A stretch of 64,000 nucleotides of DNA, from positions 2,654,452-2,718,451 of the forward strand of contig RPFO01000156.1 of assembly GCA_009746045.1 (NCBI GenBank), written 5' to 3'. Below are positions 3,336-56,400 of the stretch, one piece after another. The notes beneath the pieces are model-generated. The model was given only the letters and a program-made list of their open reading frames with translations, did no database searches and was not told the DNA's origin. The stretch's first letter is position 1, and each line of letters starts with the position of its first letter. Made by a program: the position numbers and the translations under genes. This stretch comes from Mesostigma viride (lineage: Eukaryota > Streptophyta > Mesostigmatophyceae > Mesostigmatales > Mesostigmataceae).

Positions 3336-3363
3336 CCGCGTAGGTTTTCTGGTATATATATTC

Positions 3364-5166: not shown

Positions 5167-21092
<15,926 letters not shown>

Positions 21093-27221: not shown

Positions 27222-28655
27222 ATATGGTGGCCACTCCATGCGCTTGGCCACCCTCCCCTGCCGCATGGGCGGGTGTAAGCTCACCCTCGCCGCCCGCCTC
27301 GCCCGGCCCCGCCGCCTTCCTTGGCTCTGTTGCTCAGGCCTGGGCGGAGATCCGCCGGTTGGTCCCCATGCAGCGCCGTCAGCGCCATTCCCGACTTGGT
27401 CACCCATCCCCCTTCCCCTTTGTGCAGGCTGTGCAGGATTCAAGATTACGTACCTCGGGATCCAGCAGGCTTGTGACCTCGTCCGCCCCGCTCAGGCCAT
27501 CCACCGTCGCCTGCCCCGGGGCACGCCCGGCGTGTCCACTGTCGTCAGTCCTAGTGTCTTCCCTGCCTGCGTTCATGAAAAACAACAAAAGACCTACGCG
27601 GGTGCCGACCGGGATGGGTCTGCATGCATGCGAGCTTGAACGATCAGGGGAAGGCTTGGCTTCACTCCGTTTCCCTTGAGGGGAGCGTGGGGTCCGCATT
27701 CCTGCGCGCCCTCCCCATGAGCCCTTTGTTCACGCTGGTTCCGGCCCTTTACGCCATCGCTCTCCGCCACCAGCTCTTTGCCCCGCAACCTCTCCTCACG
27801 GCGGGGGCGTCCTGCGGCAGATGCGGGCTTGCTCTGGATACTACTGGGACGCACTACTGACATCGCGTGCATGGGTGGCCAGCAGAACCAGAACTGGTTC
27901 CTCTATCTCCATACCCGGCTCTCCTCCGGGTGGTGTGTGCCATGGTTCGGTCGGTCTTTCCCCACTCCACCATCAAGTGCTAGGACGCAGATGGGGCCGC
28001 CCTCTACTCACCCAACCACCGCCTCGACATTACCGTGCTTGACTACGACGGGCAGGGTTGCCACCTGCTCATCGATGTCTCCGTGGCTCGGCCGCTCTCC
28101 GGTCGCCACATCCTCCGGGCGGCGGTGGATGCCGGCGCTGCTGCCGCTGTGGCTGAGCGCGACAAGTTTGCCTCCTACGGCAATGTGGGGCCCCACCGGG
28201 TCATCCCCTTTGTCCTTGAGGAGTTCGGGGCCGGCATGGGCCCCAAGACAGCGGAGTTTTTCCACGAGTGCTGCCAGCGCCATGAAGACCGCCTCGACCT
28301 CGAGGGTCAGACCGCCCCGTGGTCGGCCCGCACGTGGTCCTCGTATTGGCGGCAGCGCCTGTCACTCGCCCTCACTCGCACCGTGGCTGATGTGTTATTC
28401 CGCCGCACCCGGGCCGACTTTGTCGCAACCCATGCGGTCTAGATCCCTTCCAGGCCTGCATGGTGGGCCGGCAGCGCTGTTGCTGCGTGTAGTTTTGTGA
28501 TGTATAGTTAGTTGTACCTTGTGCAGCTGGCGTGATCCTTGGATGTCCGTGTCAGATTACTATTAATTTCTTCAGGGTTATTCTCCCAGTTATCGGGTTT
28601 TTCCTTATGTTGCATGCCTATCTCACCTCCGTAATCTATCATTCTCAATGAATAT
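27222..28655 (+). pseudogene. Family B non-LTR retrotransposon: reverse transcriptase end, zinc knuckle, endonuclease (copy B2)
   Basis: The longest family B copy, 5-prime truncated in TA repeats. It starts with the late reverse transcriptase block RLATLPCRMGG followed by PAAFLGSVAQAW. It continues with HQLFAPQPLLTAG, the knuckle CGRCGLALDTTGTHY, QNQNWFLYLHT, and LDITVLDYDGQG...LIDVSVARP, and ends RADFVATHAV with stop at 28440-28442. A frameshift near 27855 breaks the knuckle, another lies near 27985, and the catalytic PD has become LD. It is therefore dead. The 3-prime UTR (28443-28655) ends ATTCTCAATGAATATAT. Confidence 0.8.
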
Positions 28656-28935
28656 ATATTAAAAATATAATTACTTACAACAGAGTGAAATCACTCAAAC
28701 CAAAGCAAACGCCCAGCTATAAACCTATATACAGAGCCATGTCAAAGCTCTATACTACGATAAGACCAATGGAAACGCCTAACGGGAGGAACCTAATAGC
28801 CCTGCTGCACCGCAAAATCAGCCCGCGTACGGCGGAGCATGATGTCAGCCATGGCCCGAGTCAGCGCCACCGACAAGCGCTGACGCCAATATGACGTCCA
28901 GGTCCGCGCCGACCATGGGGCCCGCTGGCCCTCCA
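28656..28935 (-). mobile_element. Family A copy A4, 3-prime half (split by the 16.5-kb transposon)
   Basis: 3-prime UTR and the C-terminal endonuclease codons, ending GGCCCTCCA at 28935. It continues at 45393. Apart from single-base differences it is the same as copy A1. Confidence 0.85.
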
Positions 28936-29285
28936 CACTAGGAACTCAATTTCTGAGAAAATTCTCAAAAACCCTCAATTTTCTCACCCCTTTGAGAAAA
29001 AAGGTGAGAAAAGTGAGAAAAATCTCAATTTTTTTCCGCAAACGCTAGGCAACAAAATCTCACCAGGGTGAGATTTTGGTGAGAAAAAGGGGGTTTGGGT
29101 GAGATTTGGGTGAGAAAAAACCCTAAAGTGAGAAAAAAGGTGAGAATGGGTGAGAAAAAGTGAGAAAAAGTGAGAAAAAGTGAAAAAATTGAGAAGTTTC
29201 TCACCAACACGAGAAAAATCACTAACACGAGAAAAATCACAAGTCAACGTGGTGAGAAATTTCTCACCAAGAGTGTAACACGAAA
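28936..29285. repeat. Left subterminal repeat array of the transposon
   Basis: Many copies of GGTGAGAAA/GTGAGAAAA with a central palindrome TCTCACCAGGGTGAGA near 29068. They mirror the right end and are probable transposase-binding sites, by analogy with CACTA and Mutator elements. Confidence 0.75.
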
Positions 29286-29339
29286 AAAATCATGAGCTTT
29301 ATTTCATTAAGTCATTAATATGAAAATAAACTCAGCACC

Positions 29340-29490
29340 ACTAATTAATTAATTACATGATTAATTGAACTCGTGCTCCCGTTGGATCACGGAGCACCGA
29401 AGTGCTTTTAATCCCTGTGTGTGCACAACAGGAAGGGCACAGACCCCCTTTCTCCTTCATGCCAAAGGCATGTCGCAGCTGCTATTGGAC
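29340..29490 (-). mobile_element. LINE 3-prime end inserted in the transposon
   Basis: An AATT tail (29342-29365) is followed by a mutated CTCCCGTTGG hairpin, then GTGCTTTTAATCCCTGTGTG and CTCCTTCATGCCAAAGGCAT. It matches 1337-1450. Confidence 0.6.
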
Positions 29491-29929
29491 CCGATAAACG
29501 ATCCGGCAATCTGTGGGTGCAATAAGACCCATGTGAGCATATCATAACGGGTGCATGGGCAAGTGATCTGAGCATTGCCATGACGTAGCATGGTTGTACA
29601 AGGACTAAGCTAAGGCTATGGCTGGTTGTGTACCGTGTGTTAGCGGTGCACGTGACTAGGTATAATGGCTCAGCTAGGCAAACATTCTAGGCATGGCTGC
29701 CATGGCGGCAGAGACTGCCAATGATTACAAGCTAGGGCTATTCTAGCCCGCAGGGGGCGTCCACATCTCGTGGTTGATCATCAGGTCCCCGCCCCTCCAG
29801 TAAACCTTGGGACGTCAGGATTGTTGATTCCCAGCACGTTGAACGCGTTGTGTCAGCACAGCGATCCCCCCTGCATCCAAACAAAGGCACACCGATAACC
29901 AAGAAAAGAGTATGCAAATGTGCAGCCTT

Positions 29930-30610
29930 GTTCATTGAAATTATGGCTGGCTTACGCAAAGAGCGACTGTAAGATGACCTATACAGTGGGGCCGGAAACA
30001 GCTTGCTTGATCAGGGCGTGTTTTTCGAGCTTCACTGGCCGGGAGTGTCTAGTGGTGAGAACCATTGCTGCGATCGCTTTCCCACCATTTACGAGGAAAT
30101 ACCCGCAAATGAAAAACCACTGAAACGGTCTAGCTTGATTCAGTCATTGCATTAGCCACATGCCATCATGCATGTTTCCAAACGTCCAAGAACTGCCCAC
30201 GGTGCAAATGCAAAAATCCGGAGGACACGACATCATTGCTTCATATTTGTATGCAGAAGAATAAAAAAGTAACATGCATTAAGGGCCCGCCTGCATAAAG
30301 GGCCTGAATTCTGATGCGGGCCCAACGGCAGCACCGCCAAAGCAGATAAGGGCCCGCAGTCTGATGCGGGCCCCACGGCACCACCGCCATAGCAGAGCTC
30401 GAAGGTCGTGGTGCGCGTGAAACGTACGTACCTATGCCCTTTGTCGGGAGTTTTTGTAAACATCAGACACTGATTTCTTCAGACGATGCACAAGGCTGGG
30501 CGCGGCGCAGCGTGCGCAAGGCTGGCGTGCGCAAGGCTGGGGAGTGCGCGAGGCTGGGAGTGCGCAAGGCTGGGCGCGGCGCGACTTGACAGCTACCCAC
30601 TGGTGCGGCG
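29930..30610. repeat. Inner inverted repeat, left arm
   Basis: Two blocks, 29930-30230 and 30449-30600, recur inverted and in mirrored order on the right side (about 43970-44105 and 43500-43685). The second block contains the phrase GTGCGCAAGGCTGG repeated four to five times. Confidence 0.7.
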
Positions 30611-30784
30611 TAAAACTCCAACCGACGTAAAAGTGTGGCTTGCAAAAGGCGCCAAATTTTGAGCAAGCAGGACTTGGGTCAAATTCGCCGATGCGACCTC
30701 TGGTGATCATGGCCGCAACTAGCCGACTGCAATCCTCGTGAAGAACGTCGCGGCTTGCGATTTCATTTCATAGGCACTATCATC

Positions 30785-32505
30785 ATGGCTAGGGCCGTGA
30801 TTCTAGCCGTTATTTATTTAGGACTCATGTTAACGGCATGCAGGGCCTTGTCATATGTGAACATTACAAGCGATGAATGGGTACGTTTTCCCCTTTTGTT
30901 ATACTTTGATAATTTACGTTCTAGGTATTGTTCTACGTTCTAGGTGTTGTCTAGATATTGTTTACAACTTGGAAAACGCTGCCATAAATCTGCTTATCAC
31001 GCTCTTGGTTAAAAAAAAAAAATCAATTGAGCAAGATATCTGCAGCTTCGGTTGGCGCTCCTCATGCGTGCAGGATATTGACAGCGGCGCCAAGCCGGAC
31101 ACGATTATGACGCTCTGTATGCGCATAACGCCAGCCATGGCTGCCAAGTGCGTGTTGGAAAACAGCCCACACGCTACTCTTCATTGCAACGTGGCTACGA
31201 TTGAAGTTTATGTTGAAGGGGGTACCATCCTGGCGGCGTATCAGGTGAGCGTTTGTCAGCTAGCCATATGATGTGTAGCCTGGCCTGCCGAAAAATTCAC
31301 CGTAGGGCCTGGGTTTGAGGACTAGGATTTCTTTTATTTCATGGACTGTCATACGTACACACTTGTAAAGCATTACAAATGACGCTTGGCAGGGCACGCT
31401 CGGTAAAATAAATTGTCATTCCGACATCATGTTAGCGACAGCCCTGCCCAGCGTAATTTGTAAGGCTTTACAACTTGTACTGTACCCTGCTGAGGCCCTT
31501 GGACAGTTTTGATGAGCGGAAAGCTCAAGGCCATGGTTTAAAACAGAAAAGGGACCTCGAGCGCAATGCAGGCTTCGTGTATGTGCAGGCTTCGTGTAGT
31601 GAATGTATAGAATACTGAACACAAGAGTGGAAGGTAAGGTGCAGTCATGCGTGCGTGCATGAAGGTACAATATCCCTGGGTCCTTGCCCCTTGGCCCTTA
31701 ACTCGGTATTTGTTGTCTGGTAGAGTATGCCATGTGATCTTTACCGGGTAAACTCAGCATGGCTTCTTCAATGCCTAGCGGGGCTATACAACTGAAAGTG
31801 GTAAAATTGTTTATGTGCTTGCTGTACGGGGTCTTTGCCACCTGCATTGTGGTGACTGCGCGTCCTTATTGGTTTGTTTGTTGACTCACACCTTGTGTTA
31901 TTATATTTCCGCCTAAATAAGACGTACAAAAGACGAGAGCAATAGCTCTGACAAGCCATCAAAACTTTTTCTATCATTTTCCCCCCCTGAAATTCCCGTC
32001 CAGCCCATGCAATACGACATTACTCCAATACTCTGCATTATAGGTTTACTGATTTCTTTTACTATTACAACCCACAAATTGCTTAACTTTCTGGTTCTAA
32101 ATTTTTCTTCTATTGTTTGTCTCCCCCCCTCCCGCCCCTCCCCTCTGCTCCCCCCCGGCATCCTCCCTGTAATGAACCATAAAAAAGGTCGTCGGAACCG
32201 GCCAATGGGGTGGAGAGACGTTTGAAGCTTCAGGGGCATCACAGGTGCTCGCTCAGTTATGGGAGATTACTCGGGACACTGCCTTGCATTATGGCGCATG
32301 GGTTGGGCCCAAAGGGGCTCTGGTGCTACATGACAGAAGCCTTAAGGCGATGGTGATGGGCGGCATCCTGGCCCACTCAACAGTGCCATTCACGAGCAGT
32401 GTGCTTGAGGGCATGGCAAGACACGGCACGACTTATCACAGCGGGAAAGAAGGTTTTAAGGACATGAACGGAGCTGAGTTGTGTCCTCCTGGCCTTGGCG
32501 GTGAG
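30785..32505 (+). CDS. Candidate cargo gene exons 1-3 with signal peptide (unrecognised)
   Basis: Three exons with GT/AG borders, all phase 0: 30785-30880, 31074-31244 and 32245-32505. The first encodes a typical signal peptide (MARAVILAVIYLGLMLTAC). The second encodes a Cys-containing stretch (PAMAAKCVLENSP, HCNVATIEVYVEGG). The third encodes an 87-residue stretch with GAWVGPKGALVLHDRSLKAM and TSSVLEGMARHGTTYHSGKE. I do not recognise the family. Joining to the poly-Asn exon at 33029 keeps the frame, so this may be the start of one long gene. The exon chain is an inference without transcript support. Confidence 0.4.
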
Positions 32506-33028
32506 GTGAGTGATACAGGGCTGAAATGGGGACGTCGTTTGTAAGAACATTACGCCATCACTGATGTTTCTTTAACCAGGCGGGACGGTTGTTGGCCTGA
32601 CAAAAGTGAGTGAATACAGTCTAGGGTTTAGAGCAGTAGTGCATAGGGTAAATTAAAGTCCGTGTTATTTTTCCACCCACTAGACCTGTGTGGCATCACT
32701 ACCACATCCAAGTTCTTCATTCATGCGGTCTCCTGAAAAGGTTACCAAATATTTGCACCCTTGCTTGCATGCGAGCTTTGGTTGTTCTTAATAACAGGAG
32801 TGTGCATGGCAATAGATAAGTATCATTGGGTTGGGTAGACCAGCCGGGCCCCCCAATCCGCCAACACCATACTGGCTTCCACACACATGGTTGTTTGTTG
32901 GTAGTGCATTTGTTATGATTGTTTTTAGCTTGCAAGTTTTAAGGTGAGTATTTTTTGCTAGAGAAAAAGGATTTAAATGATGTTATGTTTCTTTTCTTTT
33001 TTTTTTTTTGCTACTTGTTCTGGTGCAG

Positions 33029-34153
<1,125 letters not shown>

Positions 34154-34427
34154 GTATGCCGTATTTATCCGCTCGTTGTACTAGGGTGTATTGCACTTGT
34201 GGCCACAAATTTGCACCTTTTCATGTGGCACCGTTCCTCTGCGGACTTGCGTTTAACCAGTTGGGCTACAATATAGTTAAGTACATTTGTTTTGGCCCCC
34301 CTCCGAGGTTACCTTTTTTTTTTTTTTTTCCTGGTCCCCCTTTGAGGACAAAGTGTTGCGCTTAATTCATGATCTTGTATGTGTATGGATTTATGTGTCT
34401 TCTTCGGTGCACGCGGGGGCGGGGCAG

Positions 34428-34709
34428 TGCGAGATCGATGACCACCAGCAAGCCACTCCGACTCCAGCTCCAAGTGCGAATCATGGGCATCCATCTCCCT
34501 CTTCGCCGCCATCCCCACAAGCTCGACCAGTGGTCGTGAAATGCATGGGTCGAACGAACAAACGATGGTGCACCAAGCGGGGTCTAACTCAAGTAGACAA
34601 CTCGGCGCCATCAAGACTTGTGCTGGAAAGCATACAAGGGAAGTACTACTGCCCAGATTGTGCCAAGACACGGCGCCACGGCTTCAAGGCGAAAGGGAAA
34701 ACCAGGTAA
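34428..34709 (+). CDS. Small exon with Cys-rich, basic end (unrecognised)
   Basis: Acceptor GGGGCAG at 34427. It encodes CEIDDHQQ, a Pro/Ser-rich linker and a terminal module with VVVKCMGRTNKRWCTKRG and GKYYCPDCAKTRRHG, which looks like a small zinc-binding fold (C..C...CxxC). It stops at 34707-34709 (TAA), unless the GTAATG there serves as a donor to a further exon. It may belong to the transposase transcript. Confidence 0.4.
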   Translation, partial: CEIDDHQQATPTPAPSANHGHPSPSSPPSPQARPVVVKCMGRTNKRWCTKRGLTQVDNSAPSRLVLESIQGKYYCPDCAKTRRHGFKAKGKTR

Positions 34710-35329
34710 TGAAAGGCAGTGATGGCTCGTTTTTTTATGGATTTGACCAAGCAAATTTTTTTCGCATTACTATGAGCCTAACTCCTGAACCTCGTGCTAG
34801 TGTAAAGGTGTTACGCGACTCGATCATTCTGTCTGCGGCACTGCGAGCTCTCTTATGCGGATCAAACCTGCGTCATTTGCCTGCGCCGCGCCATCCCTGC
34901 TCAACAGCGGCGGCTTTGCGAGCTGCCCCGGTCCCAACAGCGGGGTTGGCGTCGTGCCCGCGCCTGGGCTCAGCCCCCCCCAACGGCCGCCTTACTGACT
35001 GCCCCGTGCGCAAGGTAATTGCTTGTTAGAAGAATGCGCGCATCATGTGTTGATGCGCCTCTCGATTACATGACCCCATGAAATTAGTTTGGTGTATAAA
35101 TATACATATAATTTAATGTTGTATGCATCAAATAAGGGGTTAGTTAGCCTCTCACCGTCTCAAGTAACCCAGTGGGTGAACGGTTAATGGGTCGGCTACG
35201 GTTATTGGGTTGTTTTATAGGGTCCCGAGGTTAAGGTTGATAAACGTTGCTCGAACTCATTCCATGTTGTTTGCTGTCTCACTTAGTCTTGTTCACACAC
35301 TACACTTGCTATTGTGTCTCATTGCACAG

Positions 35330-37139
35330 GGACGCTCCACGGGACATAGGAGGGGATTGCGATCTTGCCAAGAATATGCCGACGGGGCCTTGGGAATCCT
35401 GGGTCGCCGCTCGTGCCGCAATTCAATCATGGGCTGATCATGGTGAGCATGGAGCCTTCGCGTTATGCGCCCGCTACGTGGCTCAGAGCAGAACAGAGCG
35501 CCGGGAATTCTGGTGCGATGGTTGCGGTGTAGCTAATCATCAAGGCAAAAAACAGACAACATCCAAGAAGACGAATTGTGAGTGGCGAGTTGTGATTGCA
35601 AAGCGGAAGGATGGGATGTTTTATGTCACAAAATACCCATTGCCCGTGACAAGCCTAAAGCCAGGGCACCTTCCCACTGGCCACAATCATGAGCTAAGAC
35701 GTCCCGGGACCATTGCTGCTCTCTTGGACCCCATGCTTCGAAAGCTGCCTGATGAGGTGAAGGCAAGGATATTGTTGTGCAGGAAGAGCGGGGTCGACCT
35801 GCCAACAATCCTGACAATGATCGATAAGGAATTTGGGGAAAACCGCACGTGGATTGATAGCGATGTCAGGAATTTCCTGCGGCGGTCTCCTGAAGATAAC
35901 TTGTCGTCTGCGTCGAAGTTGGTCTCCTGGTGCTATGCCCAGCAAGATGCCGATCCTCGTTTCTACTGGAAGCATGCTGTTGATGGCAACAACCGGCTCA
36001 ACCTTCTTTTCTACGCGACGGGGGACATGAGGGAGCGTTATGCCATGGCTTGTGATTCCCAGGCGGTTTCTGTTGACGCGACCCACGGCACGAATAATCA
36101 TGGCATGAAGCTAATCTTCTTCACGGGTGTGTCTCCTTACGGGAAAAATGACATTTATGGAGTTGCCCTAACAGTGTCGGAGCACGAGCAGGCATTTGGC
36201 TGGATATGGGACCAGTTCGCTGAGTGCATGCATGGGCACTTGCCGAAGGTTGCCATCACCGACGAAGACCAGGCCATGGCATTGGCGATTACAAAGCGAG
36301 GAATCACTCATCATCTTTGTATATTCCACCTCTTCATCATGAATGTGACAAAGAACATGAGGCGTTGCTTCGGTGACGAAGCTGCGTGGGAGAAGTTTTA
36401 CCTGGCATTGTGGCGGCTACGCAACCAAACCGATCTTCGCAGCCGTGAGCACTTTGACAGAGATTTTTTGCAGGTCCTTCTTCTCCTTCCCCAGAAGTAT
36501 TGGGGCCCCAAATGCCGCACGTTGGCCCATTGGTCCAACCTGCCCTACCTCCAGGCTGGTCATGTCCCTCGTCATCCTCGCATGTTGAATGCGCACGTTG
36601 AAAAGGATGACATGTTGCGCCTCGGACGTTTGACAGCCAGCCTGCTTGCCGCCGTCTTGGGTATGTTTGAAAGCGATGTCGCTGGCCACTTTGGTTTCAA
36701 ATGCGGACACGCTCGTGTGATAGAAGCATTGCGGCACCTGCGCCGCGAGTCTGCTAGCTGTACAGAAGATCTGATTACTCGTGTGCGTTTGTGCTACGGC
36801 ATCATGCACGAGTCAACTGCCAAGTCAGATTTTCTGGACAGCTTCCCGGATGCTACCATGACATCATGCCCCACGGCGGTCTCACAAGACGACAGTCGGT
36901 TTGCAGCGACGACGGATGGCTTGGTGCAGGGTTGGGTTTCATTGGCTGACAAGACATGCACGTACGATGATGGCGTCCTACTTGAAGTCAAGACCCACCC
37001 TACGTTCATGGAGGGGCCGACCTTGCGTGCTGGGGAGGAACGGTACGTATGTTTCAATCCAATTTACCACCGCAACACTGTAAAGAGCCGGTATGGACAC
37101 CCACAGCTCTGCACACATCTTGATTATCCAAGCAATTAG
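35330..37139 (+). CDS. FAR1/Mutator-like transposase, N-terminal and catalytic part
   Basis: After an acceptor (TTGCACAG at 35329) comes a FAR1-type zinc finger with EFWCDGCGV, a Cys and a GHNHEL end. The MULE catalytic fold follows: SVDATHGTNNHG (first Asp), FFTGVSPYGKNDIYGVAL, HEQAFGWIWDQF, ITDEDQAMALAI (second Asp) and THHLCIFHLFIMNVTKNM. The remainder to the stop at 37137-37139 is less clear. TTTTTTGCAG at 36461-36470 and GTACGT at 37043 are possible splice sites. It should continue into the exon at 37989. Function: a DDE-type DNA transposase acting in the nucleus, probably on this element. Confidence 0.75.
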
Positions 37140-37988
37140 TGTACAAGTGTTTCGCCTCCGTGGCTTACCATTATGCATCATCAGCACAACAAGTTTTAAC
37201 AGTGATTGCAAACCACGGTTTATTATGTGTCATGCAAGGTCTACCAAAAGGCGGTGTCACCATTGCATTTTTAGGCCCAAATGCATGTGTCACCCGAAAT
37301 GCATCTAAACCTTAAACCTTCCTCAACCTTTTCATGAAACAATCAAAGGTTCATTACAATATCTGATTTTCTTGCCAACTAGTTTTGCCTGTTGGCTTAG
37401 CCCCCCCAACATGGCCCGGGTAGCACGTGTTCGCCGCCCTCATCAGGGGGAATAGTATCACATTTGGTCAATAGGCCATACCAAGTCATGCTTGTTGCCC
37501 CAACCAACTAGAGCATATTCTCAATGCCCATTCCCGCCATCCAAGCTATGCCTCCTGTTTACCGCCGCAACACCGGTTGCCAGCAGCCCATTACTCACTT
37601 CACCCGCCGCTTGCTACACAAGGCCTTGCCGCCTTGCCCAACATGCTGCCTGCTTCGCCTCGTTCGGCCGAATTTCGCAAGTAACCTTGCAGTTCCAAGT
37701 ACCTCAGGTTTGCTTGACATTCCCCCTCCCTCACCCCCTCCCACCCCCCCTCCCTCCCTTTTAGAAGCTACATACACCGCTACGTTCAAGAAGTATAAGT
37801 ATTTATCTATATATTATACAAAGTTGACAAGATATTTATCACACACTTAGTTTCAGTTGGCTAACTCGCTTTCTATGTCGTGTGCCCAAGGGGCTTTTTG
37901 TTGTGCATCGATGAATTACGCCAGACATAGGTGTAACTTTTCTGTACATGTTCTTGTTGTCGCTCTGTTGACTTGTTGTCGCTTCACA

Positions 37989-39592
37989 GGCAATGCACTA
38001 TTGTGTGGAAGGACGCGCATCCCCTGGAGAAGATGCGACTGTACCATTTTGCCCAGCTTCAGTGGCAAATGAAGGTGAAGAATATGCGTTGTGGCCTTCT
38101 CCTCAGCTGGACGATGGAGAACGGCATGCGTGTGTTCGAGGTGCGTCGAAGCGATGAGTGGTTGTCGCTAGCGACTGATATTGCGAACATCTTCTGGGAC
38201 GAGTACGTAACCTACAAACAAAGCCCGGTGGAGAACTTTCAGAATCGTTTTCCTGGGTATACTTCCTTCATAGATCTTACACAACAACTTTGCGAGGTGG
38301 TAAACAGCGTCTTTGTACCCAGCTGCAGAGCCAAGATTGCTGAGGATGCGCGATTTGTGGCTGCTGGTAGTGATGGCTACAACCAGGTGTTTGACTTGTT
38401 GTATCCACCCGCCAAATGTGAGCGGTCTCACATGGACAAGCTGTATGACACCGCGCGTAAATGGGCCCGCCGCTTTACTTGGGGTGACTCAACATTTGGG
38501 ATGAGCTCTTCCCAAAGGTCCGAGGTCACGCACAACGCGATAAAAAACCGTGTGGACAAAACCACGCAGTTGGAGGAGCTCCCTGTTGTGCTGGCTGATT
38601 TGTGGCAACGGCGTGCGGAGTCACATGAGATCGAGCTTTACCGTCGATCTAAGCACCACCTGAACCGCATCAGTCCCATAGCCCACCCGGTTTTGGTTGA
38701 TGCTGAGACAAAGTTAGCCAAATATGCTTTTGACAAGCTGAAAATCCAGTTAGCAATGGCGTTTCATTACATAGTTGGTCCCGTGTATGATGGCAACCTG
38801 GTGGAGGTAAAGTTATCTCCAGAGAGCTCTGGGAGCCAGGCTCGCCGAGAACAACTGAAGGAGGATGAGCCTACGGTAGTGTCAAGGATTGTTACTCTTG
38901 GCAGCGACAAGCACCCCATTGCTTGCAGTTGTCAATATGTTGTCCACATGGGCCTCCCTTGCAGGCACGTGCTTGCTGTGGAGCTAATTGCTGTGTGGCT
39001 TCAAGCAAAGGCTCTGCCGTTGCAGTGTGTCCACCAGAAGTGGTTGTTGCCTTTAGATCAGGCAAATATGCGCAATGAGTCTTTCAAAGCGATGACAAGG
39101 CCGCAGCATCCTACACCCCGCTTGGTTGTTGACCCAACCACCCCCTCCAACGTGGAGGTGACACCAAACTATGCCAACTTGATAGCCCTTAGCCGCCGCC
39201 TTGTTCAATTGGCGGTCGAGTCCCGTAAGGAAGTGGAAATCATGCAGCATATAGAGCGTGGAATTGAGATGTGTGTTTCCGACAACCCCGGTCTTCCAGC
39301 CACAACCCCGGGCCCTGCACAACCGATGATAGCTCAGCACCCACTCCCAGTCAATGCGCAAGCAACATCTGCGCCAACCCAACAGCCCTTGTTATGTGGC
39401 AACCCACCAATCGCAAAGCCGCGGGGAAGGCCTAAGGTCCACGGGGCTCAGTCTAGGAGGCACCGCAGTGCTTGCGAGCCGGATAGAGCAGCTAGTCGCA
39501 AAGGCAAGCAGCCTCGTAGTGCAACTGCACAGTGTGAAGAGGGGCCTATTTCCAAAAAGCCATTCTTCCGTGGCTCCCACCCTACCTCCTAG
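37989..39592 (+). CDS. Mutator-like transposase, C-terminal part with SWIM zinc finger and AT-hook
   Basis: The acceptor is CTTCACAG at 37988. The region has the MULE late block WARRFTWGDSTFGMSSSQRSE, then the SWIM finger CSCQYVVHMGLPCRHVLAVE (CxC...CxH, about 38925-38985). A Pro-rich linker and a basic tail with an AT-hook core (KPRGRPK, about 39415) come last. The stop is TAG at 39590-39592. The 37140-37988 gap has no matching frame and is taken as an intron. The exon itself is fully open. Confidence 0.75.
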
Positions 39593-41264
39593 TTCATCCC
39601 CTTCAATTAGTCCATCCCAGCCTTGTCCATTGTACCACTCGGTCACGAGATAGCTGCCCTTGGGTGGTGCCATGTCCGACGGATGAGTTAAAATGTTGTT
39701 ATTGTATTAAAGCATGGATAAAATAATTGCATTTTCATTTTAGCAACATCAAAGAGACAACATAACATGTTCATAATTCAATTGTGATTGATTTGGGTTT
39801 GATAAACAGTGCTCTCAACGTTTTCCAATTCATCTACACCTTAGTCATGAATTTCAATACAAAATGCTAGTGGGATGGTGATGCATGGAGCATGAATTAA
39901 TGGATTAAAATATTTACTCATATAATTTTAACACCTAAAAAGTGATTTCAGTCGTCACATGCAATGTTGGGCTACCACCTCTTTTGTTTTGGAATTTTGG
40001 CACAGTATCGAGAAAGAGGTAATTCCAAAGTTTGCCAATGACTGCATGGTCTCGGAGCTAAACCAAGAGTTGTGTGTACGACCCTCATTTGTCGTGGCAT
40101 GATCCACGTAGGGTCTGAGTACAAGGCTAACCAGGACAGTCATAATGCGTACACTCTATGCTCCTAGTACTTGTTGATATTGACATATTCTCCAGATTTC
40201 TGGCCTGCGCCGGTAGTCGCTTTGATATTGCATTCATTATGCTCACGTGATGCATGTCACGATAATATTATACTGTCTAACGTATTAGTTGCATTGAATT
40301 GAAACGTTACTCCGTTGGGAGATCACGTAACACATGTCCGGTAGTCTGTAATATTAAGGCAGATGGTGCGCAAGGATAGATGGCAAGTAGTGATGAAGGA
40401 GACCACCCCCAAGTCTGTGGGGGCTCCGCGTGTGACCAAGTATGGCATTCATAGCGATTCGGGCCGCGGTGCCCACACCCCTGTAACTAGGACCTAGATA
40501 GCTTATACCATCCATTCCATCCCATGTTCCCCTCCCACTGAGGACTTATGCTCACGTGACGCAGTCACGTGTCTATTAATTAATTAATTAATGTCCGGTA
40601 GGGGCACCTCGGGTAACCCGCTACGGTCGGCACAGTGCCACCGGCCGCGGGGCCCACAATCCTGCTACCCGTGCTTAGATAGTTTCTTTCGCATGTCATC
40701 CATTCCCTTCATGAGGATACTGCTCACGCAGTCACGTGGTATTAATTAATTAATTAAATGTCCGTGAGAGGGGGTACATGGTCTATAAGCGTGCTAAGCA
40801 ACAACCTGCAAATGATGTAAACTTAATAATGCTCACGTGATGTTTGTTAATTATAATATTGATAATTGTCTCTTGTTCACGTGGTTCAGTCACGTTCTTA
40901 TCGCACGCAATTGATAGCACTGTTACGAGTTAACCCACCTCTATGTGAGAACCTGTACGTCTCCACCGTTGGCACTCGAATGGTACCTATCACCACTAAA
41001 GATGATTTAGAGGAATCGTTCGCGACAGCTAGATTGCAATGAAGCTTGATACATGTTCAGCTGCAATAAAACACATTTCCCAATTAACACAAGCAACAGC
41101 TATTGTGTGGGTCGACAACAACCAACTAACTATGAGCCCAACTCGAACGTATCGACGTTGGCTAGACTGCCATTATTGTTCTCACGACAGACCATACATT
41201 GAGGTGCTCACAGAACGCTGGCACCAAGGGCAGAGGACATACAGGTAAAAACCATGACATGAGT
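39593..41264. repeat. AT-rich tract with repeated CACGTGAC-GCA-GTCACGTG hairpin tails
   Basis: At least five tail-like segments (near 40238, 40548, 40727, 40833 and 40875) carry GCTCACGTGA/CAGTCACGT followed by TATTAATTAATT. Two of them are followed by ATGTCCG. One CTCCGTTGGGAG hairpin lies at 40309-40321. A partial repeat X end lies at 40195-40235. No gene is seen. Confidence 0.6.
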
Positions 41265-42214
41265 AGGAACGGGCATGGCATGACTAGGAACGTGTACAGC
41301 ATGACTAGGAACGGGTATGGCATGACTAGGAAGTAGGAACAGGTATGGCATGACTAGGAAAGAGCATGGCATGACTAGGAACGGGCATGGCATGACTAGG
41401 AACGGGTGTGGCATGACTAGGAACGTGTACAACATGACTAGGAACGGGATGGCATGACTAGGAATGAGTATGTCATGACTCGGAACGGGTATGGCATGAC
41501 TCGGAACGACCATGGCATGACTAGGAACGGGTACAGCATGACTAGGAACGGGTATGGCATGACTAGGAATGAGTATGTCATGACTCGGAACGGGTATGGC
41601 ATGACTCGGAACGACCATGGCATGACTAGGAACGGGTATGGCATGACTAGGAACGGGTGTGGCATGACTAGGAGCGTGTACAGCATGACTAGGAACGGGT
41701 ATGGCATGACTAGGAACGGGTATGGCATGACTAGGAACGGGTATGGCATGACTAGGAACGGGCATGGCATGACTAGGAACGGGTGTGGCATGACTAGGAA
41801 CGGGCATGGCATGACTAGGAACGGCCATGGCATGACTAGGAACGGGCATGGCATGACTAGGAACGGGTATGGCATGACTAGGAACGGGTATGGCATGACT
41901 AGGAACGGGTATGGCATGACTAGGAACGGGTGTGGCATGACTAGGAACGGGCATGGCATGACTAGGAACGGCCATGGCATGACTAGGAACGGGCATGGCA
42001 TGACTAGGAACGGGTATGGCATGACTAGGAACGGGTATGGCATGACTAGGAACGGGTATGGCATGACTAGGAACGGGTATGGCATGACTAGGAACGGGTA
42101 TGGCATGACTAGGAACGGGCATGGCATGACTAGGAACGGGTATGGCATGACTCGGAACGACCATGGCATGACTAGGAACGGCCATGGCATGACTAGGAAC
42201 GGGTATGGCATGAC
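41265..42214. repeat. 21-bp minisatellite, ~45 copies
   Basis: The unit is GGCATGACTAGGAACGGGTAT with variants (CAT, TGT, CTCGGAACGACC). The 21-bp period keeps frames open on both strands, giving long repetitive frames that are not genes. It resumes at 42660. Confidence 0.95.
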
Positions 42215-42659
42215 GTGGCCCACGCGCATGTGCGCCCATAATGGCCCCCATGGATGATGCTTTCAGTATTTAGCCGCGCCCAGCCTACAATGGGACCTCC
42301 CATGGATGATGCATTAAGAATTTAGCCATGCGATGCCTATGCAGGGAGTTACTCTCTGCTGAGATGCCATGTGTACACCAGCTATAGCCTAGCCACATAC
42401 CCTCCACCCCATATGTCATGCAGGCCTTCTAGGCCCTCTCCTCAAGCCCCCCCCTGGGTGCCTGTGCTTGTTAAGGAGGCATGAACCATCATGGCGGTGC
42501 AGGTGCACCTTGTGCACCCAGAGCAGGTGACAGTTGTACATCCTCCACCTGCAGGTTGTAGCCCTGATTGTATTACAAACCCATAGATGCCCCTTTCTCA
42601 GGGCTATGTGTTACATATGCTCCCAACGGAGCTATCATTTTAATTAATTAATTAATTAA
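42215..42659 (+). mobile_element. SINE-like element inserted in the 21-bp minisatellite
   Basis: Starts GTGGCCCACGCGCATGTG, ends with the CTCC-CAAC-GGAG hairpin (42621-42632) and a TTAA tail. It is flanked on both sides by ATGGCATGAC from the minisatellite, consistent with a ~10-bp target duplication. Confidence 0.75.
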
Positions 42660-42772
42660 TGGCATGACTAGGAACGGGAGTGACATGACTAGGAACGACC
42701 ATGGCATGACTCGGAACGACCATGGCATGACTAGGAAGGAGCATGGCATGACTAGGAACGGGTATGGCGGCC
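42660..42772. repeat. 21-bp minisatellite, continuation
   Basis: Five further units on the right side of the SINE-like insertion. Confidence 0.9.
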
Positions 42773-43490
42773 AAGCACGTGGGCGGGTTCGTGCTATTCG
42801 TACCGTTGATGCTGAAGAGTCACAGGTATCGTTGGAACGGAACGGTCCAGGGGTCGCAGGCGGTTCTTCCCGGGACTGATCTTCCAGCGCTGCAAGAAAA
42901 TCACGAACATGTCCCTGGTTGGGTAAAGAAAGCAGGCAAACCCCGACCGGCCGACCGCGTCCCCACCGTGCATGTACCTTGGTAAGACGTACGTAAGGTT
43001 CTGTGGGCTGAACTGACCGCGCTTCAAGAATATGACGATTTGAAGCCACTATGAAGGTATATGCAAACCATGTCGGCGTCATCCGCTCGACCCCTCTTAC
43101 TCAGATATAGTTGGATATGCAGCATAAAAAGCAACGGGGAGAAATTGTCAATGACTATGATCCCCCAACTGTGGGTGTTAGGAAATAGAAAAAGCATGGC
43201 AGGCATAGCTTGCGTGCAACATTGGGGGTCGGAAATTCTAGTCGGGGGGGTCAGTGGACTCCAACGTGGACTCGATACTCAGATTGATTGATTATTGAGG
43301 GTAAACTGCACGACTACAGGCTCTTTGCGCGCGCCACATGTTAAGTAATCATGCCATCAGCTGCCATTTTGAACGCATCATAAGGAAACCCGTCGGGTTA
43401 AAAACTAAGATCTAAACGGCCATCACCACTCGCATCGACGACGAAATTCGGCTAAGTCCAAAGGCAGCCGATACGATTTACGTCGTTTGC
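42773..43490. other. Unassigned part of the transposon
   Basis: A minus-strand frame of about 110 codons (VGVCLLSLPNQGHVRDFLAALEDQ in part) is open here, but no family is recognised and no splice context decides it. Confidence 0.3.
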
Positions 43491-43496
43491 AGTTTT

Positions 43497-44230
43497 ACGC
43501 GCCAGCCTTGCGCACGCTGCCGCGCCGCGCCCAGCCACGATGCACTCCCAGCCTTGCGCACTCCCAGCCTCGCGCACTCCCCAGCCTTGCGCACGCCAGC
43601 CTTGCGCACGCTGCGCCGCGCCCAGCCTTGTGCATCGTCTGAAGAAATCAGTGTCTGATGTTTACAAAAACTCCTTTGTCGGTAGGTGCCGTTGGGGTCA
43701 AATTGGGTGCCGCCAAAATCGGGCCGACGCGTCAATAGACTGAGGCCGTCGATGAGTGCCATCATGCGGCTTGGGTCACTTCTGTTGGAGAACTTCAGCT
43801 AAGTTAACTTAACGCAAACCACTGGTCGCCCGCGTCGGGAACCGGCCCAACGGCTCTCCCGCAACAGAAAATTACGCGGCATACTGCATAAGTCGTCGGA
43901 TGGTTACATTTCGACGGTCAAGATTTCATGATGAGGTTTGCGTTCAATTTGCCGCAGTTTGCCGCCCAGAGAAAGTAGTTGTTGGACTCGTTGCCCACGA
44001 TGAAACACAATCAAGCAAGCCGTTTCCGGCCCCACCGTGTAGGTCATGTAGTCGCTCTTCACGTCAGCCAGCCGTAATTTCAATGCACAAGGCTACACAT
44101 TTCCATCTCCATTCATATTCATAATCCTGCACGACTCGAAAACGCGGACAAGATAACGGCAGGCTCGAGCTACCATGGTCCGGATTCTCCCGATTTCTGG
44201 CCTGCGCTGGTTGTCTCCTTGATATTGGCA
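43497..44230. repeat. Inner inverted repeat, right arm
   Basis: Mirror of 29930-30610. The outer end (44180-44225) carries the ATATCAAGGAGACAACC phrase in reverse complement. The inner end carries the GCCAGCCTTGCGCAC repeats. Confidence 0.7.
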
Positions 44231-45090
44231 ACTCTCTCCGGTAAGAGATTTTCCGCAGTTTGGCTGTTTCGAAACGTTAATTAAGTGAGATGCCTTCGGA
44301 TCAGGAGACTCACACAGCCGCGAAATCATGCCAAAGGTCATATGTTCGATCCCTTGCTGGTAGCTTCTGAGCTTTCTTATTTTCTGTGTTCCGCGGAATC
44401 TCAGATTTGGGCCGCTAGCGTTTTCACGTTTGTTGCTTTCTGATCCGACGACAACGTTGTGCCTTGCTCGTGTGACATCTGGCGCATGGTGTGATTCATG
44501 TGTATGGTGCTGCCTTGCCACATGGGGCTGCTTTGCCATAAGAGTGAGTGTTGGGTTCTACACATTTGCTGCATGGACCGTTAGGTGCTGGTGAGCTCTT
44601 CCTTGTAGAACGCTTACATCTATGTCAAGGATCTGATTTCTTTTCCTCTTGCGTATATTGTGTCGGTTTGTTTATTTCTTGCAGGGACCACGAGAGTAAA
44701 ATGCAAGCGGTTCCACTTTCAAGTCAGCATGTGACGCCCTGTCGACCGGCACGCTTTGTTAGCTAGCTACCATATAGTATTTGATGATAGGCATTGAATG
44801 CGGAAGATGTCATAACGCCATAACAGACTGTGTTGAACAGGCATTGAATGCCGAAGATGTCATAACGCCATAACAGACTGTGTTGAACAGGCATATTTGA
44901 ATGCCGAAGATGTACATAACGCCATAACAGTGTTGAATAGTTGAATCAACGGGTTCTTGCAGCTGTAAACATTAAAATTATTCAAACATTTAATGAAAAA
45001 ATCATTATTGTTCGTGCTGTTTTGAACAGCGGTTGTTACTGGCACTGCATGCATGTGTCTGCTGCCAGCATATTGCATTATGGGTGTGTT
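44231..45090. repeat. Transposon right part, three 50-57-bp tandem units
   Basis: GCATTGAATGCCGAAGATGT followed by CATAACGCCATAACAG is repeated three times at about 44790-44935. Otherwise no feature is recognisable. Confidence 0.5.
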
Positions 45091-45094
45091 TTTC

Positions 45095-45392
45095 AGCGCT
45101 GTGTTTTCTCACTTTTCTCACGTCCTGATTTTCTCACTTTTCTCACGTTTCACACCTCCCGTTTTTCTCACTTATCTCACGTCCTGTTTTTTGAGATTTT
45201 TCTCACGTTTTTCCCCTTTTTTCACCTTTTTGGGGCAATCTCACCCGGGTGAGATTGCCCTTTTCTCACCCATTCTCACCCATTTCTCACCCTATTTTCT
45301 CACTTTTCTCACCCATTCTCACCCATTTCTCACCCATCTCACCCTTTTTCTCACCTTTTCTCACCCATTCTCAAAGCCGAGTTCCTAGTGCA
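45095..45392. repeat. Right subterminal repeat array of the transposon
   Basis: TTTCTCACC/TTCTCACCC units (the inverse of the left array) with a palindrome TCTCACCCGGGTGAGA near 45238. It ends GAGTTCCTAGTG. Confidence 0.75.
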
Positions 45393-45832
45393 GGTCCAGC
45401 CGGTCCTCCCGGAGCCGGCAACACTCCTTGAAGAAGGCGGAGGTCAGGGGCCCCATGGCCCCAAACTCCTCCAGGACAAAGGGCACCACACGATGGTGCC
45501 CGACGTCGCCGTAGGCCAGGAGCTTGGCCCGCTCCGCCCGGTCCGCCGTGTAACCTGCCGTGAGGGAGGCCCCAGCCACGTGGCTAAGAGCCAAGGGCCG
45601 CGCCACCGAAACGTCAATAAGCAGATGCCGGCCACCCCCCTCAAAGTCCAGCACCACGATGTCAGGCCGGTGGTTGGGGGAATAGAAGGCAGCGCCATCC
45701 GCATCCTCGGACCGGATGTTCGCGTGGGGGAAAACCGACCGAATCATGGCGAGCACCACCGTCAGGAGGACAGTGTGCAAATACAAATACCAATTCTGAT
45801 TCTGTTGGCCCCCCATGCATCAATGAATATAT
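45393..45832 (-). pseudogene. Family A copy A4, 5-prime half: endonuclease domain
   Basis: An open minus-strand frame from GGQQNQNWYLYLHT through RPDIVVLDFEGGG and LIDVSVARP to EDRLDL, where the transposon interrupts it. Here the PD...D core is intact, unlike in A1. It is 5-prime truncated at a TATATATA stretch (45827-45836). Confidence 0.8.
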
Positions 45833-45836
45833 ATAT

Positions 45837-50400: not shown

Positions 50401-53400
50401 GCTTGCTCCGACAGGATCCCTTCCGTGCGGACCAGGACGCCGTACTCGGTGCGCAGGTCCGCCTAAGGAGGGGGGACGGAGAGGGAAAGAAAGTAAAGAC
50501 GGGGGATGAAGGTATAAGGCGGGAAAGGGCGGTGAGTTGGTTTGGTTTGGTTTGGTTGCTTCGCTTTGGTTTGGTTTGGGCTGGGTTTGCCTGGGTTGGG
50601 TTGGGTTGGGTTGGGTTGGGGCAAGAGGGGGAGCACGCCATCAGCGTGGGGGGATGGGGAGCAGGATACGTATGGCCTTGATGCAAGGGTTTGGCGCACA
50701 GAACAAAAGCTATCATCGGTGCTATAATTGTTGACAATTTTAAGAAAAACACTCGCTATTATTTTGTTGAATGGGTCACAACTACTAGAGTGAAAATAAG
50801 CCTCGATGCTGCTCCACAGGTGGAGTAGCTGCAGAGTAATAAAAATGCAATGAGATCAGGCCAGCCAGCCGCTGCCATGTGGCAGCTTGAAGGCCATCTG
50901 GCTCTTGCCACACACTTGATCATTTCAAAGTACTTTTGCCTACTTTTTATCGCAGGCAGGGACATACAAGAGCACTGGAGCTGGCAGCACCCACCAGCTC
51001 CTTTTTCAGCTTGGCGAACGCCTGCCTTTTGCCACACACATTTGATTTATCACAGACTGGGAAACAGAAGGGTACAGGAGCAGCACCCACCAGCTCCTTC
51101 TTTAGCTTGGTGTACGTCTGGCTCTTGCCGCGCAGGGAGGCTGCGTAGCGCTTGAAGTCCTCCCCTTTGAGCATCTTGTCCTTCTGGTCATCCACCTGCG
51201 CGCCAAGGGATTATTTATAGCATAAATACATCAAAGCAGGTTTTAAAAGTACATCAGGAGCTCAGATAAAGCAATGATCAAACTAAGGATACCAAACGAA
51301 AGAACCAGTATTGCGAAAAAGAGCTTGCCAAAAAAGATACTGAATTACATTTAGCCCTCGTCCAATGAATGACCCGGCCAAATGTAGAACGTGCAGCCAC
51401 TGCGACATGACGAGCAGAATGCTAGTCCGCCCACTGTCACTGGATGCAAAGTACGTGGAACACACTCACATGTAACTCTCGTTCTTGCGAGTGGCACCAG
51501 CAAGCATTTTCTAGCAAGCGGCACGGCATTTTCTAGCAAGCGGCGAGGCATTTTCTAGCAAGCGGCACGGCATTTTATAGCAAGCGGCACAGCATTTTCT
51601 AGCAAGCGGCACGGCAGCTTCGGTAGTACTCCGCGGCACCATGGACACAACAACAACAGCAGCCATCAGCAACAGCCATCAGCACATCTTAGACAGGGAA
51701 ACGAGCTCTGCACCACAACGCCATCAAAGGCCCCTATCGGGATGTCCTTGTCCCCCAGCTGTGCCCTTGCAGAATAAGCGACCCACGCACCAACCCACTG
51801 GCATGTTCTTGTCCTCCATCTCGCGCAGCAGCAGCCGCTTCTTCATCCACTCCTATCCATAAACTACAAAGGCTAGTCTATTATAACCTGGTCTAACCGC
51901 CCTTGCAGGCCCTCACCTGCATGTTCTTGTCCTCCAGCTCACGCAGCAGCAGCCGCTTCTTCATCCACTCCTATCCATAAACGACAAAGGCTAGTCTATT
52001 ATAACCTGGTCTAACCGCCCTTGCAGGCCCTCACCTGTATGTTCTTGTCCTCCAGCTCGCGCAGCAGCAGCCGCTTCTTCATCCACTCCTATCCATAAAC
52101 TACAAAGGCTAGTCTATTATAACCTGGTCTAACCGCCCTTGCAGGCCCTCACCTGCATGTTCTTGTCCTCCAGCTCACGCAGCAGCAGCCGCTTCTTCAT
52201 CCCCTCCTATCCATTAACTACAAAGGCTAGTCTATTATAACCTGGTCTAACAGCCCTTGCAGGCCCTCACCTGTATGTTCTTGTCCTCCAGCTCACGCAG
52301 CAGCGGCCCCTTCTTCATCCACTCCTATCCATAAACTACAAAGGCTAGTCTATTATAACTTGGTCTAACTGCCCTTGCAGGCCCTCACCTGTATGTTCTT
52401 GTCCTCCATCTCGCGCAGCAGCAGCCGCTTCTTCATCCACTCCTATCCATAAACTACAAAGGCTAGTCTATTATAACCTGGTCTAACAACCCTTGCAGGC
52501 CCTCACCTGCATGTTCTTGTCCTCCAGCTCACGCAGCAGCGGCCCCTTCTTCATCCACTCCTATCCATAAACTACAAAGGCTAGTCTATTATAACCTGGT
52601 CTAACAACCCTTGCAGGCCCTCACCTGTATGTTCTTGTCCCCCATCTCGCGCAGCAGCAGCCGCTTCTTCATCCACTCCTATCCATTAACTACAAAGGCT
52701 AGTCTATTATAACCTGGTCTAACCGCCCTTGCAGGCCCTCACCTGTATGTTCTTGTCCTCCAGCTCACGCAGCAGCAGCCGCTTCTTCATCCACTCCTAT
52801 CCATAAACTACAAAGGCTAGTCTATTATAACCTGGTCTAACAACCCTTGCAGGCCCTCACCGGCATGTTCTTGTCCTCCAGCTCACGCAGCAGCAGCCCC
52901 TTCTTCATCCACTCCTATCCATAAACTACAAAGGCTAGTCTATTATAACCTGGTCTAACAACCCTTGCAGGCCCTCACCTGAATGTTCTTGTCCCCCATC
53001 TCGCGCAGCAGCAGCCGCTTCTTCATCCACTCCTATCCATTAACTACAAAGGCAAGTCTATTATAACCTGGTCTAACTGCCCTTGCAGGCCCTCACCTGT
53101 ATGTTCTTGTCCCCCATCTCGCGCAGCAGCAGCCGCTTCTTCATCCACTCCTATCCATAAACTACAAAGGCGAGTCTATTATAACCTGGTCTAACAGCCC
53201 TTGCAGGCCCTCACCTGTATGTTCTTGTCCTCCAGCTCACGCAGCAGCAGCCGCTTCTTCTCGGCGAGCGCGTCGAGCGTGGCAAACACCTGCTCCTTCT
53301 TGCGGGATACCATGGACGCCATCTGCATCTGCTGGCGCAGCATGTCGCCCTTGTTGCCCTGCTGCAGCCGCAGGACGTCTTGCTTCTCCTGCATCTCGCT

Positions 53401-56400
53401 CACCTCCGACTGGACCACCATCAGCTCTTTCTGCACGCGTGGGGGGGGGGGGAGAGGAAAGAGGTGGTGTGTGTGTGGGGGGGGGGGGGAACGACGGTAG
53501 GGGGGCACGGGATGGCATTAGGGTGCTGGGGTGGGGGGAGACGGGGTGGGGTGGAAAGGGTTGGAGTTGGGGAAGGGGAGAAGGGAGAAGGGAGAAGGGA
53601 GGGACATAGAGGGGGGAGACTTATTGCAAATACGTAACGCTGGTGACATAGACATGAATGGCAAGATATCGCTGGAAGATCCTGATGCTTGCGCTGATTC
53701 GGCAATCCGCTATGGGCAACGATCCACGAATTCACTATAGGCAAAGAGCGGCACGCATACCCAGAGGGCAGGTAGGCCGCATGGGTAGCGCTGCGACCAC
53801 CACAAAAAATTACACACACAAACAAATCGCGCTGCTGTATGCGTGACGGATACAGGCCCCCTGCTGGCAAAACTACCGTGCAAAACGTGGGCTCTGCGGG
53901 CTTGTGCAAGTGCGGCTGTGCAAGTTAAGAAACCACACAATCAGGGTGCATGATGGCGGTATCACGGCCAGCCGAAATACAGGCCGGATATCCCTAAGCC
54001 TTCGCAAATCAAACCCCGTCATCTCGCTCTATCTACCTGGCACTCTGATTACTCAGCCCCCCCTCCCTGCCCACATTCCTCCCTCCCTCACACACACAGA
54101 AAGCCATGCGAACGAAGCCCGATACAATAAGACATGTCAAGGCTGTTGGGAATAATAGTATCTCAGGTAGTATATAAATGGTAGTACATAATAGTATCTC
54201 AGGTAGTATATAACTGGTAGTATATAATAGTATCTGAGGTAGTATATAACAGGAAGTACATAATAGTATCTGAGGTAGTATAGCACTGGTAGCATATTAT
54301 AGTATCTGAGGTTGTATATAATAGTATATAACTGAGGTAGCAATAGTACATAACTGAGGTAGCGATAGTACATAACTGAGCAGAGGCCTCACAAGCAATG
54401 GCGAGCAAATCAAAGGAGGCCATACACGTGGCGCAGCCACGACAGCGACCCAAACCATCCTTTTACTGGATCATCCTTTTACCTCCAAACCATCCTTTTA
54501 CCAAATCATCCTTTTACCTCCAAACCATGGCTTTACCGAATCATCCTTTTAGCTCCAAATCATCCTTTTACCGAATCATCCTTTTACCTCAGAACCATCC
54601 TTTTACTGAATCATCCTTTTACCTTTGCACCATCACTTCACCGGATCTTATCACATGACGTTACCTGCAGGGCGTTGAGGTCGGACTCGGTGTGGACGGG
54701 GTCATTGAGCACGCGCTCCATCGCCTGCATGCGCGTCCGCTTCTTCTCGATCTCCTGCGCCCACGTGGCATAGGGAAAGACGCATTGAGAAAGGTTGTTG
54801 TTGTTGTTGGTGGTGGAGGAGGGACGGGAGAAGGAGGGAGACAAGCGGGAGAGGGAGATACATAACAGGGGGCACACAACCAAGCACACCAGCGCCATGT
54901 CAGGGAGAAGATGCGCTGAGTGTGCACCTACTGAAGCCTGCAAGCGATCCATCTCAGAGCAGCTATTGGATCGACACCGATTGCCCTTTTCCATGTCCAG
55001 CCTTCCCTTCAGCCTGTTTGCTTCCTGGATCCTCCCCCGTTTCCCCCAACCTCGCTTCCCTGTGGCCGTCCGCCAAATAGCGCTTTGGACGCAACAATGA
55101 TCGCTGCTGAACTATTACTGAGGCATTATTACACCGCGTGTTGCCGCCACTGGACACCTAGGGACTACCAGCTGGGTCCCATAAACGGAGGCACACACTC
55201 ACTAATGACAACATGTGCCCCAACGCATCTTGCTTCTGGCATCCCATTTCACCTGTGTCCAATCCTCCTTTCAACCCCAGCCCCCCCTCCAGCCTCCGTG
55301 CTCATGTTGGGCAGCTCTTACAGTGAATCAGTCCTACCCAACCACTCATTCCTCCCAAGCCCTCCAGTTTAGAACAACTAACCCTTCCCCGCTACCTCAC
55401 GCAAGTTCTCCGTGACCGCATATTGATATTAGCCCTACTCTTATTGGCGTGTTTGCCTTTCTGGTCTGTAGTACTCTACCCATAACCATTGATCTCACCG
55501 CCTCTCCCCTTGGGAGGCTTCTCGGTGACTGCATGTCAATTTCGCACCACCATAACTTCTTCTCATAATCTCCAACTTCAACCAACCAAACCCTTCCCCA
55601 ACCCAACTTCGGCAGCTTGTCAGTGACTAAACATCGGCTCTAACAACCAAACTAAACATGTTGAGTTCTTTTAACAGTAGTACATACTACTTGTTCTTTC
55701 AACATACTGCTACTAATAATCAAATTCCCCCACCCACCTTGGGCAGCTTCTCGGTGACCGCATATCGGTTCAACCCCGTCTCGTCCGCCAGATGCTGAAG
55801 CAGTGCCGACGCGCTGCTGTCCGACGCGCTCGCCCGGATGTCCCTCAGCCGCGCCACCGCGCGTGTGTGCCGCAACTCCGCGTGCTCGAGCGCCGCCTTC
55901 TGCTCCCGCAGCTGCTCCTTGAGCTTGGCCTCCTCCTCGTGCTGCTTGCGCAGCTGCTGCGCGGCGGCCAGCATCGCGTCAAAGGAGGGCGTGGACGCCA
56001 GCTTGGCCTTGGTCTTGGCGATCTTGGCGCTCAGCTGCTCGCGCTCGTTCTCCTTCTCCACTATCTGCGACTTGACCTCGGCTGGGTTCTTGCCCACCTT
56101 GCGCACCGAGTCCACCTGGCGCACCGGGTTTGTGGGGTGGGGTAAGAAATTTGGGATGTTTGCCAGTTTACGGCATTTGTGGGTGGGGGGGGGAAATTGT
56201 CATGTTTGTTGGGCGGGGATGAGTAGGTGAGGGGTTGGGATGCATCGAGAGTGGGCATGTGTGTTGGGAAGGGGTGGGGGGGAACGGAGGCTAAGAAGGG
56301 TTGAAAAGGGACATTGGGTGTGGGAGGAGGGGGGGGGGGGAGGATTTGAGGTGTGTGTGTATGCGTGTGTGTGTGTGTGCGTGCTTGGTTGGTTGGTTGG

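Follow-up and report, generated by a model that had tools for sequence, protein, structure and literature searches.

A retrotransposon copy in the genome of Mesostigma viride carries what is very probably a nest of transposons: a Mutator-like element (MULE) sits inside a non-autonomous CACTA-like element, which in turn sits inside the retro-copy, A4. The nest lies in a 64,000-nucleotide stretch of contig RPFO01000156.1 (positions 2,654,452 to 2,718,451 of the forward strand), referred to here as the window; all positions given below are those of the window. The sequence directly shows both pairs of transposon ends with their target-site duplications, the location of the transposase and, for the outer element, an empty site. 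Together, duplications of 15 bp, 2 bp and 9 bp and an empty site within the same window document, to the base, one transposition after another. Nesting of transposons is common in itself, though the present example is unusually clean. It also corrects an easy mis-assignment, in which the transposase of a MULE is attributed to a CACTA-like element. A literature search found no title describing this locus, although this does not prove that it is unpublished.

The insertion of 16.5 kb into A4 is confirmed by its empty site, the retro-copy A1, which lies in the same window and lacks the insert. When the window was compared with itself by BLAST (giving a repeat list that covers positions up to ~53.1 kb), A1 matched A4 in two pieces: 2356–2638 matched 28652–28935 with 99.3% identity, and 2637–3069 matched 45391–45819 with 98.8% identity. 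These two pieces share exactly 2 bases of A1, and the A4 flanks, joined without the insert, align to A1 with zero gaps and zero mismatches across the junction. The overlap and the junction alignment identify the CA found on either side of the insert (28934–28935 and 45391–45392, plus strand) as its target-site duplication. The first-pass annotation of this DNA had already proposed that the halves of A4 rejoin against A1 with a CA duplication, and the alignment of filled and empty sites bears this out to the base. Its figure of 16,457 bp for the insert was right about the insertion and its left end but took in the duplicated CA on the right; the outer element proper is 28936–45390, or 16,455 bp. 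The portion of A1 that acts as the empty site is 2364–3068, and the parts of A4 are 28660–28935 on the left and 45393–45819 on the right, all on the minus strand. The left part would be the 3′ part of A4 if this probable minus-strand reading is right.

A4 has a target-site duplication of its own, the 15-bp direct repeat TCAATGAATATATAT, at its left and right edges (28645–28659 and 45820–45834, plus strand). The longest match among 996 random pairs of the same size was 11. In a larger control, a match of at least 15 was reached in 2 of 5000 random pairs (22 and 38), and in a differently sized control a match of at least 16 was reached in 2 of 1992 pairs (16 and 19). A1 is flanked by a different duplication, CTGGTATATATATT, of 14 bp (2351–2364 and 3349–3362). 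A4 thus has the features of a non-long-terminal-repeat retrotransposon, namely a target duplication of variable length, here 15 bp, and 5′ truncation, with one end shorter than that of A1. Its open frame of 143–144 amino acids matched no Pfam family in a search for a reverse transcriptase or endonuclease domain.

The outer element begins with CACTAGGAACTC at 28936–28947 (plus strand) and ends with the exact inverse at 45379–45390 (minus strand). The earlier proposal that these 12-bp sequences are the ends of a DNA transposon within a retro-copy agrees with this perfect inverse pair. Sequences that resemble them but differ at 2 positions occur at 9267, 30043 and 60340 and are at chance level (5 matches including the 2 true ends, with 3.78 expected). 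Once the MULE and a single copy of the 9-bp duplication around it are subtracted, the outer element is 3,220 bp long, with 1,512 bp on the left (28936–30447, plus strand, including one copy of that duplication) and 1,708 bp on the right (43683–45390, plus strand). At both ends, arrays of GTGAGA point inward. The left array lies at 28960–29270 (plus strand) and the right array, its inverse, at 45100–45373 (minus strand); both sets of limits are approximate, those on the left having been drawn by eye. The left 400 bp hold 12 copies of the motif, against a maximum of 2 in 500 shuffles, and the right 400 bp hold 18, against a maximum of 4 in another 500, so the subterminal arrays reported in the first-pass annotation are well founded. 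In a scan of positions 1–63900 with 400-bp windows and 100-bp steps, at least 4 copies of GTGAGA or TCTCAC were found only in windows overlapping the two ends of the outer element. For the looser motif GTGAG/CTCAC, a minisatellite at ~14.1–15.5 kb is equally rich (up to 18). Both arrays also share a hairpin core, TCTCACC..GGTGAGA, which lies 117–142 bp in from the left end, within CAAAATCTCACC-AG-GGTGAGATTTTG (29053–29078, plus strand), and 130–157 bp in from the right end, within GGGCAATCTCACCC-GGGTGAGATTGCCC (45233–45260, plus strand).

The outer element is best read as non-autonomous and CACTA-like, since it has the CACTA..TAGTG terminal inverted repeats (TIRs) and the subterminal repeat arrays of CACTA/EnSpm elements. 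piggyBac elements target TTAA, whereas the duplicated bases here are CA. Nonetheless, the piggyBac element “Kenshin” is described with CACTAGA ends, like those of the outer element (PMC4298943). For CACTA elements, accounts describe short CACTA..TAGTG ends (PMC10741241), subterminal repeats (PMC2613891, PMC8978399) and stem-loops within these repeats (PMC2613891). With CACTA/EnSpm elements the outer element shares 12-bp TIRs that start with CACTAG and, as described for Tgmt* of soybean, subterminal repeat arrays that contain hairpins (PMC2613891). It resembles the TRC-type CACTA elements of animals in its 2-bp target duplication, although the TRC-type element described starts with CCC rather than CACTAG (PMC4298943). 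Target duplications of 2–5 bp are given for the wider group around CACTA (PMC12730594).

The outer element encloses another element, 13,226 bp long (30448–43673, plus strand). Its TIRs (30448–30572, plus strand, and 43549–43673, minus strand) are identical at 125 of 125 positions, and the BLAST match between them continues more weakly to 170 of 198. Directly abutting these TIRs on either side is the 9-bp target-site duplication CTTTGTCGG (30439–30447 and 43674–43682, plus strand), a 9-mer that occurs at these two sites only on either strand of the window. By comparison, any 9-bp match, with a slack of 3 bases in either direction on each side, was found in 185 of 200,000 random pairs of positions. 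MULEs are described as having long TIRs and target duplications of 7–12 bp (PMC10741241). The combination of long TIRs, a 9-bp duplication and a MULE transposase therefore indicates that the inner element is Mutator-like. Specifically, its MULE domain, SWIM finger, long TIRs and 9-bp duplication liken it to those members of the MULE/MuDR superfamily that have a SWIM-type transposase. MULEs are usually shorter than 5 kb, although some longer than 8 kb are known (PMC10741241); the inner element measures 13.2 kb, to which its minisatellite and the repeat nested there contribute. Among viral contigs, 7 match the initial 17 bases of the MULE TIR, which is about what chance would give by a rough, uncomputed estimate.

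The domains of the predicted transposase all lie inside the inner element, within 35244–39592. The Pfam MULE family (PF10551) matches with an E value of 1.2e-15 and 58.1 bits against a cut-off of 27.6, the ZSWIM-type RNase H-like family (PF21056) with 1.5e-07, and the SWIM family (PF04434) with 1.6e-05; a FAR1 match is weak and falls under the cut-off (0.099). No other protein domains were found in the 16.5 kb with Pfam in six frames (stops masked, E values up to 0.1 or 1), in a scan that left out the minus strand of 30448–30659 and that weak or split domains can escape. A three-exon model with GT-AG introns (34706–35329 and 37043–37989) is open through 1,158 amino acids. Proposed exon 1 (34545–34705, plus strand) starts at the only one of 6 ATGs tried that is open to the end; proposed exon 2 (35330–37042, plus strand) would encode the MULE and RNase H-like domains and the weak FAR1-like match, and proposed exon 3 (37990–39592, plus strand) the SWIM zinc finger, a basic tail and the stop. 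The spliced model contains the motifs VDATHG, TDEDQ and QRSE. The gene may be active. When exon 2 was used as a query (35331–37041), it had no match among viral contigs and gave 6 pattern matches among genome contigs, of which 0 were confirmed; near records may be excluded from both searches. In the PDB, the exon-2 frame has no sequence relative at E values up to 0.1.

How might the nest have been assembled? In the sequence of events proposed here, A4 would have landed first and duplicated 15 bp of its target. The CACTA-like element, non-autonomous and 3.2 kb long, would then have been cut and pasted into A4, with duplication of CA. A transposase supplied from elsewhere would recognize the CACTAGGAACTC ends; the GTGAGA arrays and the hairpins are probably recognized too. 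The outer element was probably mobilized in trans, with its arrays likely binding its transposase or helper. The 13.2-kb MULE, with its readable MULE/SWIM transposase, would have inserted internally in the CACTA-like element, duplicating CTTTGTCGG, and a small repeat with a (TTAA)n-type tail would have landed in the minisatellite of the MULE.

A4 is older than the outer insertion, and the MULE is within the outer element. Entry of the MULE could precede or follow the arrival of the outer element in A4, and the 16.5 kb may have moved as a unit. If so, the MULE entered the CACTA-like element elsewhere and reached A4 as its passenger, in a single move of all 16.5 kb. This is a variant of the best explanation that differs in the order of events only, and it is a genuine possibility, with a probability somewhat short of even. 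Nesting by itself leaves the order undefined, and both insertions look young, given the 125 of 125 identical TIR positions and the 2 substitutions in 706 aligned columns of A1 and A4. The size of the insert was thought unusual in the first-pass annotation, but an insertion of a 20.5-kb CACTA element is described in soybean (PMC2613891). While there is no direct evidence against a single move, stepwise insertion in place requires no large move. The near identity of A1 and A4 makes the outer insertion look young, as had been suggested, and the 2 substitutions and 5 gap columns place an upper bound on the age of A4 and its insertions, barring gene conversion. The similarity of A1 and A4 has no bearing on when the MULE entered the outer element.

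It is far less probable that the 16.5 kb is one cut-and-paste transposon, with the MULE-type gene its own and the inner inverted repeats included, as the first-pass annotation had it. The 16.5-kb ends and the 2-bp duplication are real, and a transposase does lie between them. The transposase exons are real too, as are the inner inverted repeats, but they belong to a separate MULE. The reading as one large transposon is rejected because the 9-bp duplication sits at the inner TIRs: these repeats stop exactly at it, as expected of an independent insertion, and the 13,226 bp that they delimit contain the only transposase domains found. Moreover, long TIRs with a 9-bp duplication are typical of MULEs as they are described, whereas 12-bp ends with a 2-bp duplication are not (PMC10741241). 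Finally, A4, A1 and other retro-copies are highly similar and share one window, which speaks for a misjoin of the 16.5 kb at the repeat A4, but such an assembly artefact is scarcely credible, since the 15-bp, 2-bp and 9-bp duplications and the inverse ends are concordant and independent, and a misjoin would not produce such signatures or an empty site exact to the base.

Several observations weigh against the nest of a MULE in a CACTA-like element. First, the six-frame Pfam scan matched 0 families in the 3.2 kb of the outer element, on either its left or its right side, and detected no transposase there. The superfamily to which the outer element probably belongs is judged from its termini and arrays only, in a copy with no detected transposase, and without a CACTA-type transposase the assignment can be “CACTA-like, non-autonomous” at most. 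Second, plant CACTA/EnSpm elements have a 3-bp target duplication, including the soybean element as described (PMC2613891), whereas the empty site gives 2 bp, CA. Third, there is no empty site for the MULE within the 64-kb window, and its probable insertion is deduced from TIRs and a target duplication. Fourth, the transposase gene model is a prediction from sequence. The motifs VDATHG, TDEDQ and QRSE may supply a D-D-E triad, with the E in QRSE as its putative third catalytic residue by comparison with FAR1-type transposases. Fifth, another inner inverted repeat (29912–30011 against 44106–44010; 86 of 100 positions) is not accounted for by the MULE.

The arms that include this further inverted repeat, 29912–30227 and 44010–44225, have relatives at 9139–9440 and 9020–9235, respectively. 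Taken singly, none of the three repeats (the two arms and their relative) has TIRs accompanied by a direct repeat in the 8 bases around its limits. Taken as the ends of one element, in 4 pairings, the arms yield direct repeats of at most 2 bp in a search of 12 bases; the same test recovers the 9 bp of the MULE and the 2 bp of the outer element. The arms look like parts of a dispersed repeat in opposite orientation, of which a further copy lies outside the nest (9020–9440). The outer element also contains a short repeat with runs of TTAATTAA at one end (29342–29482), which is 83% identical to 1303–1457.

The MULE contains a 21-bp minisatellite with the unit ATGGCATGACTAGGAACGGGT (41254–42214, continued at 42659–42768; plus strand). 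It is interrupted at 42215–42657 (plus strand) by the repeat with a (TTAA)n-type tail, which has a relative of 72% identity on the other strand at 1917–2319. By eye, GGCATGAC flanks this repeat on both sides, although as a duplication inside an array this is weak evidence. The repeat is probably similar to a short interspersed nuclear element (SINE) or to the end of a long interspersed nuclear element. A tRNA-derived SINE was also considered, but neither ARAGORN nor Rfam (at gathering scores) returned anything in the window. The minisatellite unit contains ACTAGGAAC, the 9-base core of the outer TIR. Of 38 occurrences of this core on the plus strand of the window, 37 are in the array and the other is the left TIR; the single occurrence on the minus strand is the right TIR. 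The chance of finding it in one unrelated 21-bp unit is ~6e-4, a rough estimate made post hoc in a window with several minisatellites. It is very doubtful that the array lures or docks the transposase of the outer element, or is a relic of CACTA-like ends that the MULE captured and multiplied. If true, this would join two unrelated transposon families within one mobile unit.

Outside the nest, exons resembling IFT81, a flagellar transport protein, lie on the minus strand at ~55.7–58.0 kb, pointing to a flagellated eukaryote as the host. Their PDB matches, 8bd7_F (E value 1e-11) and 6ian_C (2.1e-10), are about equally distant; 8bd7 is presumably from Chlamydomonas. Between these exons is a TTGG/TGGG tetranucleotide repeat of ~1.1 kb (56390–57500). 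Other repeats in the window include a long, complex, CTCAC-rich minisatellite (14109–15523) and minisatellites with periods of ~76 bp (17908–18817) and ~118 bp (51796–53260), the copies of which are ~93–98% alike. An open frame of 314 amino acids at 61663–62607 has several stretches that, by eye, are WW-like.

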